From an uncultured Flavobacteriia bacterium (GTDB lineage: Bacteria > Bacteroidota > Bacteroidia > Flavobacteriales > Flavobacteriaceae): DNA of 6,786 nucleotides. The notes under the pieces are model-generated. The model saw only the letters and a list, made by a program, of their open reading frames with translations. It was not told the origin of the DNA and ran no database searches. How positions within the stretch are numbered: position 1 is the first letter of the stretch; each line of letters begins with the position of its first letter. The stretch spans positions 1-6,786 of the forward strand of contig CAMLRV010000125.1 of assembly GCA_946482495.1 (NCBI GenBank), given 5' to 3'. Position numbers and translations under genes: made by a program. Positions 4,114 through 6,786 of this stretch are shown one piece after another.

Positions 4114-4149
4114 AAAAACCCGTCAAGTTTTAGAACAAGACGGGTTTTT
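4114..4149. terminator. Bidirectional terminator between converging genes
   Basis: AAAAACCCGTC (4114-4124) and GACGGGTTTTT (4139-4149) form an 11-bp stem around a 14-base loop. Its A and T flanks give a T-tract on each strand. It ends both the hydrolase transcript from the left and the corA-DUF1003-methyltransferase transcript from the right, whose last stop is at 4168. Confidence 0.9.
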
Positions 4150-5365: not shown

Positions 5366-6430
5366 TTAATACCATCTTCTCTTTTTAAAGTAAATTATCA
5401 TAGTAATAAACAGCAAAAACATTACACCTAGAATAATGAAATAACCATACTGCCAGTGCAATTCTGGCATATTATCGAAATTCATTCCATATACACCAAC
5501 TATAAAAGTCAAAGGCATAAAAAATACTGAAACCACAGTTAATGTTTTCATTACTTCATTCATTTTATGACTTTGCATAGAAAAATAAAAAGCCGAAGCA
5601 CTTTCTAAAGAACTTAAATCGGCATCAACTTGATCTAAAAGTTCTAAACATTTTTGATGTAATCGAGAAAAGAAAGTATAATTTTCAGGAGCAATCACAT
5701 TAAAAACATCATCATCTTTCATGCTTTTTATAGAATACAACGAATCACGAAGTGGCACAATAGAACGGCGTAAAAAATTCAAATTATCTCTGTGACATTC
5801 AATGTCTTCTAAAATATTTGGATTGGGTTTCGTTTTAATTAAATCAATCACATTATCAATTTTCATCTCTTCACTTTCAATGGTGATGTAAAAATTTTCC
5901 ATCACTGCATCTAAAAGCAAATACAACAAATAATCTACTTTACGGTCTCTTACAATTCCTGCATGCTGACGCATTCTTTCTCGAATATGCTGAAAGAAAT
6001 CGCTCTTTTTTTCTTGAAAAGAAAATAGAAAGCCATCTCTTAGTATAAAACTAATTTGCTCTACATCAATACCATTCGATTCTGGTAAAAGTGATTTAAT
6101 ATTAAAAAACAACGTATGATTATACTCATCAACTTTTGAACGTTTTAAAATATTTAAGATATCGCCCAAAATAAAATCGTCAATAGAAAACTTCTCACCA
6201 ATTTCTTTTATCAATTCAATATCACCTAAACCGTGCAGATTTAACCAATTGTTCTTGGAATCATCTAAATGCTTATCTAATTGCGACAATTTTATGTCTT
6301 CAAATTCAAATAATTCATCAGAATTGTACACAAATAATTGCATTTCTGGTTTCGTATCTGCGTGTTCACCAGTGTATTCAATTAATGTTGGAACAACTTT
6401 TCGCCCTTTTTTGTATAATAGTTTTCGCAC
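5366..6430 (-). CDS. corA: Magnesium and cobalt transport protein CorA
   Basis: CorA is a homopentameric inner-membrane channel that takes up Mg2+ and also Co2+ and Ni2+ along the membrane potential. The 354-residue length is typical. A large cytoplasmic N-terminal domain (1 to about 285) contains the family stretches NWLNLHGL, FILRDGFLFSFQE and LRRSIVPLRD. The long stalk helix includes LLDQVDADLSSLESASAFYFS. Membrane helix 1 (about 292-313) ends in the selectivity motif YGMNF, with G315-M316-N317. The periplasmic loop reads NMPELHW, helix 2 spans about 327-347, and the end is the basic KKRRWY. The start is GTG at 6430. An in-frame stop lies seven bases upstream, and the next internal ATG (residue 30) would cut into the conserved domain, so GTG is favoured. 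It is the first gene of the minus-strand operon and has its own promoter overlapping a REP palindrome. Confidence 0.96.
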   Translation of the reverse strand: MRKLLYKKGRKVVPTLIEYTGEHADTKPEMQLFVYNSDELFEFEDIKLSQLDKHLDDSKNNWLNLHGLGDIELIKEIGEKFSIDDFILGDILNILKRSKVDEYNHTLFFNIKSLLPESNGIDVEQISFILRDGFLFSFQEKKSDFFQHIRERMRQHAGIVRDRKVDYLLYLLLDAVMENFYITIESEEMKIDNVIDLIKTKPNPNILEDIECHRDNLNFLRRSIVPLRDSLYSIKSMKDDDVFNVIAPENYTFFSRLHQKCLELLDQVDADLSSLESASAFYFSMQSHKMNEVMKTLTVVSVFFMPLTFIVGVYGMNFDNMPELHWQYGYFIILGVMFLLFITMIIYFKKRRWY

Positions 6431-6460
6431 TTTATTTTAAATAAGTATTTTTACCTCTCA

Positions 6461-6493
6461 CAAATATAACTAAATAACCTAACAGGTTTCAAA
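6461..6493 (-). promoter_or_regulatory. Bacteroidetes-type promoter of the corA operon
   Basis: Read on the minus strand, TTTG (complement of 6490-6493), a 21-base spacer and TATATTTG (complement of 6461-6468) fit TTG-N17-23-TAnnTTTG. Transcription should start near 6453-6456, about 25 bases before GTG 6430. The -33 TTTG lies in the loop and the first base of the right arm of the palindrome at 6476-6506, so the hairpin, or a protein bound to it, would compete with RNA polymerase. Confidence 0.65.
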
Positions 6494-6506
6494 AACCTGT
6501 TAGGTT
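6476..6506. repeat. REP-like perfect palindrome in front of the RAYT gene
   Basis: AACCTAACAGGTTT (6476-6489), loop CAA and AAACCTGTTAGGTT (6493-6506) make a perfect 14-bp stem with a 3-base loop. Each arm is itself a small inverted repeat: AACCT-AAC-AGGTT on the left and AACCT-GTT-AGGTT on the right. The site can therefore fold as one long hairpin or two short ones. It ends 12 bases before the start of a REP-associated tyrosine transposase. Such enzymes are known to recognise and process palindromes of this kind near their own gene, so this is very likely the cognate REP. No second copy was found in the window. Confidence 0.75.
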
Positions 6507-6518
6507 TAAATAATAAAA

Positions 6519-6786
6519 ATGAAGCAAGATAAATTCGAAGCTGGTCTTACTTATCATATTTTCAACAGAGGAAATAATAAAGAGGATTTATTTTTAGACG
6601 AAGGTAACTATACTTACTTTTTAAGTTTAGTAGAAAAATATTTACTGCCAGTTTGTGATATCTATGCTTACTGTTTATTAAAAAATCATTTTCACATTGT
6701 TTTAAAAATAAAAGAAAAAGAAAATTTGCCAGAAAAATTAAAAGGCAAATTACATTTACCCTTTTCAAATTTATTTAATTCTTACA
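6519..6786 (+). CDS. REP-associated tyrosine transposase (RAYT, IS200-like Y1), N-terminal part
   Basis: An open frame of 89 codons starts at ATG 6519 and runs off the right end without a stop. It carries the N-terminal half of the Y1 transposase fold. Marks are GLTYHIFNRGNNKEDLF (9-25), AYCLLKNHFHIVLKIK (50-65) with the metal-binding HUH motif H57-F58-H59, and PFSNLFNSY (81-89). YHIFNRGNNKE followed by a long helix is characteristic of RAYT proteins rather than classical IS200 TnpA. The catalytic tyrosine normally lies further on, outside the window. These HUH nucleases cut single-stranded DNA at structured palindromes and form a 5'-phosphotyrosine link. They are thought to be domesticated enzymes that spread REP sequences. 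The adjacent palindrome at 6476-6506 supports this. No good promoter is seen on this strand (TAGGTTTA at 6501 lacks a -33), so expression may be low. Whether the full gene is intact cannot be told. Confidence 0.88.
   Translation, partial: MKQDKFEAGLTYHIFNRGNNKEDLFLDEGNYTYFLSLVEKYLLPVCDIYAYCLLKNHFHIVLKIKEKENLPEKLKGKLHLPFSNLFNSY

Follow-up and report, generated by a model that had tools for sequence, protein, structure and literature searches.

A probable REPtron-like unit beside corA in an uncultured flavobacterium: a RAYT-type transposase gene preceded by a hairpin without the GTAG head

The window, by which we mean the whole stretch of 6,786 nucleotides analyzed here, very probably ends in the left-hand portion of a REPtron-like unit, in which a RAYT gene and its cognate hairpin of a non-GTAG type have been displaced to corA. 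The evidence comes from the window itself, from the RAYT genes and hairpins of flavobacterial relatives, and from the distribution of the hairpins among genomes.

Results

The hairpin, a REP-like palindrome to which no strand is assigned, occupies positions 6476..6506, with arms at 6476-6489 and 6493-6506, the core CCTAACAGG..CCTGTTAGG and symmetric AACC..GGTT ends. The sequence-only reading of this DNA had claimed a perfect 14-bp palindrome 12 bases 5' of an open frame, and this proved exact: in the inverted-repeat listing of the window the arms are 14 nt each, with 100% complementarity and a loop of 3 nt, and 12 bases separate the hairpin end at 6506 from the ATG at 6519. Of the 8 pairs in that listing it is the only one with full complementarity, and its fold as single-stranded DNA reaches -13.4 kcal/mol, against a mean of -2.74 for 200 shuffles (z -7.35; 0/200 equal). 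The GT[AG]G head is absent from the foot of the window hairpin, and the CCTAACAGG..CCTGTTAGG core is also found flanking the RAYTs of the window clade defined below. The window, which ends inside the gene, shows one hairpin beside the RAYT frame, on the upstream side. Elsewhere in the window, an imperfect terminator-like hairpin lies at 4114-4149 between the converging genes of a lipase-like protein and a methyltransferase, and an imperfect 17-nt inverted repeat lies at 1413-1456 between peroxiredoxin and thioredoxin genes. The latter was considered as a dispersed element and rejected, the 17-mer having 1 match, with 1 mismatch, in the genomes of 8 relatives.

The 5' part of the putative RAYT-type (HUH, Y1) transposase gene spans 6519..6786 on the plus strand, with an open frame (6519-6785) that runs off the window end after 89 aa. 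Both motifs that had been read in this open frame, YHIFNRGNNKE and HFH, were confirmed, the latter as NHFH; in an alignment of the window with 40 RAYTs the columns N56, H57, F58 and H59 are invariant, and the Tyr of a Y-x-H-x-N-P motif, before which the window stops, is nearly so. Searched by itself, the 89-aa piece had neither a Pfam nor an NCBIfam match at E<=0.001, and when the threshold was relaxed to E<=10 the best model was Y1_Tnp, with 18.7 bits vs a cut-off of 23. A homology search at E<=0.001 gave 35 proteins, whose identity to the piece in the aligned region is 45-79%; some of them are named transposase in their sources and one "REP element-mobilizing transposase RayT." Among flavobacterial RAYTs, L132-L149, the group that we call the window clade in protein comparisons, shows 64-73% identity to it over 89 aa. 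The NCBIfam RAYT model NF047646 matches 40/41 aligned members at E<=0.001, and Pfam Y1_Tnp matches 29/41 at E<=0.01; the only NF047646 score shown, 58.9 bits for L132, is under the curated cut-off of 80 and counts against the RAYT reading. An AlphaFold2 model of P0003, a protein 66% identical to the window piece, has a pLDDT of 92.3, and its best solved match (TM 0.74, E 1.2e-7) is 4er8, the REP-associated tyrosine transposase of Escherichia coli (TnpAREP) bound to a REP hairpin, with the IS608 and ISDra2 transposases ranking behind. A sequence-only search of solved structures was set aside; it gave 4er8 just E 0.27, behind designed repeat proteins that are apparently chance matches. The profile matches of the relatives and the predicted fold thus support a RAYT-type identity of the protein.

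The divergent neighbor, corA (5366..6430, minus strand, TIGR00383), belongs to the context outside the unit. Its leader, at 6425..6473 and given without strand, is common to five relatives, but the match stops at about 6473, where the relatives continue into hutI. In these five genomes, whose corA is 87-91% identical, corA and hutI stand back to back (the identity of hutI was tested in L001, and in the other four by similarity to L001), and none of the five near relatives has a RAYT between the two genes. The usual site of the gene is a different one: at 21/21 loci with the CCTAACAGG core beside a RAYT (L132-L151 and L156) the same preceding neighbor was found, ending ..LPGLQCEAMYD.., a call made by pattern at 17 loci and by eye at 4. 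This neighbor matched no NCBIfam model and contains a GCVEQ motif, which we take to be typical of alpha-2-macroglobulins. The remaining four loci of the set, L152-L155, have other neighbors and other cores. The RAYT copy of the window, adjoining corA, lies away from the locus used by its relatives, and given that locus and the RAYT-less corA-hutI arrangement, the unit therefore moved or was acquired by transfer in the window lineage.

As a separate observation, 6 of the 80 corA loci examined have a RAYT. In L060, L050, L044, L059 and L028 it sits immediately upstream of corA, flanked on each side by hairpins that resemble or are related to CCCGACAGG, one of which may be degenerate, and in L001 (2019-2624) it sits behind hutI with a different hairpin family. 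RAYT units near corA thus turn up more than once among the loci examined.

Alternatively, the window copy could be a degraded remnant, a displaced and non-functional RAYT piece left with one hairpin. Such a remnant would agree with the contig end falling inside the gene, with the different locus at which the relatives keep their RAYT, and with the broken copies known from F. hibisci and G169, but it is unlikely considering that the part of the frame within the window is uninterrupted and keeps the conserved residues of the HUH motif, and that the hairpin is perfect.

The pairing of hairpin and RAYT was examined in 42 flavobacterial RAYT genes, namely, 12 of a 14-locus set (the other two duplicate L132 and L156) and all 30 of a second set. 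Of these genes, 39/42 have a hairpin in the 150 bp upstream, 36/42 have one in the 150-base stretch at the gene end and 35/42 have one on both sides, against 11/545 control stretches from the same loci. The stem core varies by RAYT lineage, with CCTAACAGG, CCTCACAGG, CCTCAAAGG, CCCGACAGG, CCTGCAAGG, CCCTATCAGGG and others represented, and the core of the window is that of the window clade. Distances between RAYT proteins and between hairpins were correlated in a Mantel test with n=41, including the window and omitting two hairpin-less RAYTs (Spearman 0.66; 0/2000 permutations as high, maximum 0.28), and part of this correlation is accounted for by common ancestry by itself. Counting against the pairing, the RAYT closest to the window by uncorrected distance, L152, carries CCTCACAGG, which is one base off. 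GT[AG]G occurs at 1/104 RAYT-flanking hairpins, under the background of 369/8400. The earlier proposal of a REP/RAYT unit therefore stands in part: a RAYT-type protein, a lineage-linked hairpin and intergenic repeats are all found in the relatives, but the GT[AG]G foot is not a feature of these hairpins. In addition, L083 and L094 have, compared with L084, arm-swapped palindromes in which the two arms come in exchanged order, and in L083 the palindromes flanking the RAYT differ from each other in the same way. A table of stem pairing was left unused because its hairpins had been pre-selected for complementarity.

A set of 249 genomes from the genus to which G001 belongs was then searched for the pattern CCTAACAGGTTN{1,8}AACCTGTTAGG, which was found in 82 of them, with a maximum of 36 copies; the backward control of the pattern gave 0 in every row. 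Carriers of a window-clade RAYT were defined here by a RAYT sharing 66% identity or more with L081, which gave 19 genomes, including one with the broken F. hibisci gene. The CCTAACAGG hairpin is present in 19/19 carriers (median 19 copies), whereas it is present in 63/230 non-carriers (median 0; one-sided p 5e-16, kinship ignored), and in genomes of at least 4.4 Mb the medians are 19 in carriers (n=15) vs 3 in non-carriers (n=44; p 4e-7, kinship ignored). A second pair, CCCGACAGG and the RAYTs that share 70% identity or more with L087 (one carrier gene, in G169, being broken), behaves similarly: the hairpin is present in 12/14 carriers vs 44/235 others (p 3e-11, and p 8e-4 in large genomes, kinship ignored in both). 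Non-cognate crosses, computed after removing carriers of the cognate RAYT, showed no association in genomes of at least 4.4 Mb (p 0.95 and 0.38, kinship ignored). Over all 249 genomes they were significant (p 1e-3 and 8e-7, kinship ignored), since large genomes are richer in both, and this counts against a specific link. In the large-genome subset, RAYT and hairpin copies are linked for cognate pairs only.

Exceptions also count against the link. At least 6 CCTAACAGG hairpins occur in 14 genomes that have no window-clade RAYT; 9 of these have no RAYT at E<=1e-5, and in the other 5 the best RAYT of each has its own CCTGCAAGG-type hairpins. Comparable CCCGACAGG-rich genomes without the cognate RAYT number 23. 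Either the enzyme was lost from such genomes with the copies remaining, or some copies are of other origin. Where the cognate RAYT is missing at E<=1e-60, CCCGACAGG hairpins can still be numerous, with 70 in G113, 42 in G252 and large populations in other genomes as well.

The placing and anatomy of dispersed copies were analyzed in G010 and G112, where 70 copies group into 50 clusters. With genes called as mechanical ORFs of at least 90 aa, 0/50 clusters lie inside an ORF; 40 lie between tandem genes, 6 between convergent and 1 between divergent genes, and 3 are at contig edges, with 4/50 clusters flanking the RAYT itself. By form, 43 copies show a TA foot on one side, 19 are symmetrically extended in the stem and 8 have neither feature. 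The 43 oriented copies follow the scheme TAT-hairpin-TAT, with T at -1 in 42/43 and T at +3 in 42/43, the TA at +1/+2 being fixed by the selection of the copies. The window hairpin, with its AACC..GGTT ends, belongs to the symmetric form, which counts against the favored reading; symmetric copies may include terminators or have another origin.

G010 also has six exact doublets of inverted hairpins with spacers of 9-10 bp that are similar in sequence, and a doublet used as a query matches about 10 places in this genome over the greater part of its length. The fold computed for one doublet is one long hairpin, at -33.2 kcal/mol. In this the doublets are REPIN-like, REPINs being, as Bertels and Rainey reportedly described them, inverted hairpin doublets that fold into one long hairpin; the comparison concerns the relative G010 and its 9-10 bp spacers, and the window has a single hairpin. 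One doublet site was compared with 6 aligned relatives, taken from 23 matching genomes among 398, and in these the same pair of genes has no doublet between them; the extra DNA of G010 at this site amounts to about 280 bp, and therefore the comparison falls short of a clean doublet insertion. Outer inverted 9-mers were found with at most 2 mismatches at 7/9 left and 8/9 right flanks of G010 doublets, against about 0.19 in shuffles, and we do not claim them as MITE ends because the motif was derived from the same sequences.

The intergenic placing bears on the idea that these hairpins are mainly transcription terminators or RNA-stabilizing hairpins common in Flavobacterium, and that the one beside the RAYT is incidental or merely regulatory. 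That most clusters are intergenic, that 19/70 copies are symmetric, some with T runs after them, and that 14 genomes are rich in copies without a window-clade RAYT would all suit this idea. We nevertheless consider it quite unlikely, because the window hairpin precedes the starts of both adjoining genes, the wrong place for a terminator, and because the stems track the RAYT lineage, copies among large genomes track only the cognate RAYT, 35/42 RAYTs are flanked on both sides, and the doublets with their similar spacers resemble mobile units. A true self-moving IS200/IS605 insertion sequence is highly improbable: the site does differ from that of the relatives' copies and IS200-type folds are among the next structure matches, but a genome usually contains one gene of each lineage, the locus is fixed at 21/21 loci with the CCTAACAGG core, and the RAYT profile and the TnpAREP fold match best.

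Discussion

In the REPtron-like unit that we favor, a gene for a single-strand HUH transposase of the RAYT type would be preceded by its own hairpin, and a second hairpin would follow the gene, judging from its relatives. The enzyme most likely recognizes the hairpin as single-stranded DNA. E. coli TnpAREP binds and cuts REP in that form, with GTAG crucial (PMC8266576 and PMC6006769, in the parts cited here), and since the flavobacterial unit has like parts but a different foot, we infer that recognition would proceed through the stem sequence and flanking bases other than GTAG. Cutting would be performed by a Tyr encoded past the window end. The solitary hairpins and inverted doublets that share the core and lie between genes in the relatives would be non-autonomous products mobilized by the enzyme. 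Many hairpin copies tend to accompany a close relative of the RAYT, and this suggests that the enzyme recognizes the hairpin and has spread it.

RAYT/REP units, known as REPtrons, have been described in gammaproteobacteria (Nunvar 2010, PMC2817692). Compared with what the cited part of that paper describes, the flavobacterial relatives are alike in having an HUH transposase gene between two hairpins, a hairpin family matched to the RAYT, and intergenic copies, clusters and doublets, the last recalling REPINs (Bertels and Rainey 2011, PMC3116915). They are unlike REPtrons in that the hairpins are without the GT[AG]G head (1/104), the hosts are AT-rich, and the copies are counted in tens, not hundreds. 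TIRYT genes in TIRtron units are RAYT-like, and the inverted repeats on their flanks bear no relation to GTAG repeats (Di Nocera 2013, PMC3733652), but the flavobacterial flanking elements, unlike those covered in the cited part of that paper, are compact palindromes and occur dispersed as well. According to the relevant part of Quentin 2018 (PMC6006769), TnpAREP subclasses 2.4 and 2.6, corresponding to Bertels groups 4 and 5, occur in Bacteroidetes, subclass 2.6 genes have atypical flanking hairpins with copies elsewhere, and subclass 2.4 has the motif NH[IFV]H. The NHFH of the window agrees with subclass 2.4, and the Y[IV]H[LNYF]NP of its relatives wholly fits neither the 2.4 nor the 2.6 motif as presented there.

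Flavobacterial RAYTs had been called little studied. The field is indeed thin, and among the literature matches listed there was no study of flavobacterial RAYT/hairpin pairs, but Bacteroidetes RAYTs with unusual hairpins had already been published in general terms (PMC6006769, as far as the cited part goes). Palindrome counts in two Flavobacterium genomes are given in PMC12306157, whose main text contains neither "rayt" nor "transposase." The pairing in flavobacteria, the lack of GTAG, the foot with TAT and the doublets do not appear in the matches listed.

A broader scheme, which we put forward tentatively as nearly as probable as its opposite, is that several orthogonal RAYT/hairpin pairs exist in Flavobacterium, each with its own stem code and no GTAG foot, that the pair of the window clade has a TAT foot at either end of the hairpin and has given rise to REPIN-like doublets, and that stem recognition has replaced the GTAG guide. 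If true, this would be a second solution to the problem of how domesticated HUH transposases find their hairpins. Measured RAYT recognition concerns gammaproteobacterial enzymes, with a large part played by GTAG (PMC8266576, in the part cited here), and GTAG-less pairs with stems matched to the enzyme within one genus would then offer natural swaps for probing how the enzyme reads its target. That copy number is linked to the cognate enzyme is relevant to the question of whether transposases, once domesticated, go on maintaining their hairpins.

A final observation concerns the RAYTs of L150 and L151, in which a Phe replaces the catalytic Tyr, yet hairpins flank both genes on either side. Judging from this substitution, the two proteins are possibly non-cutting binders.
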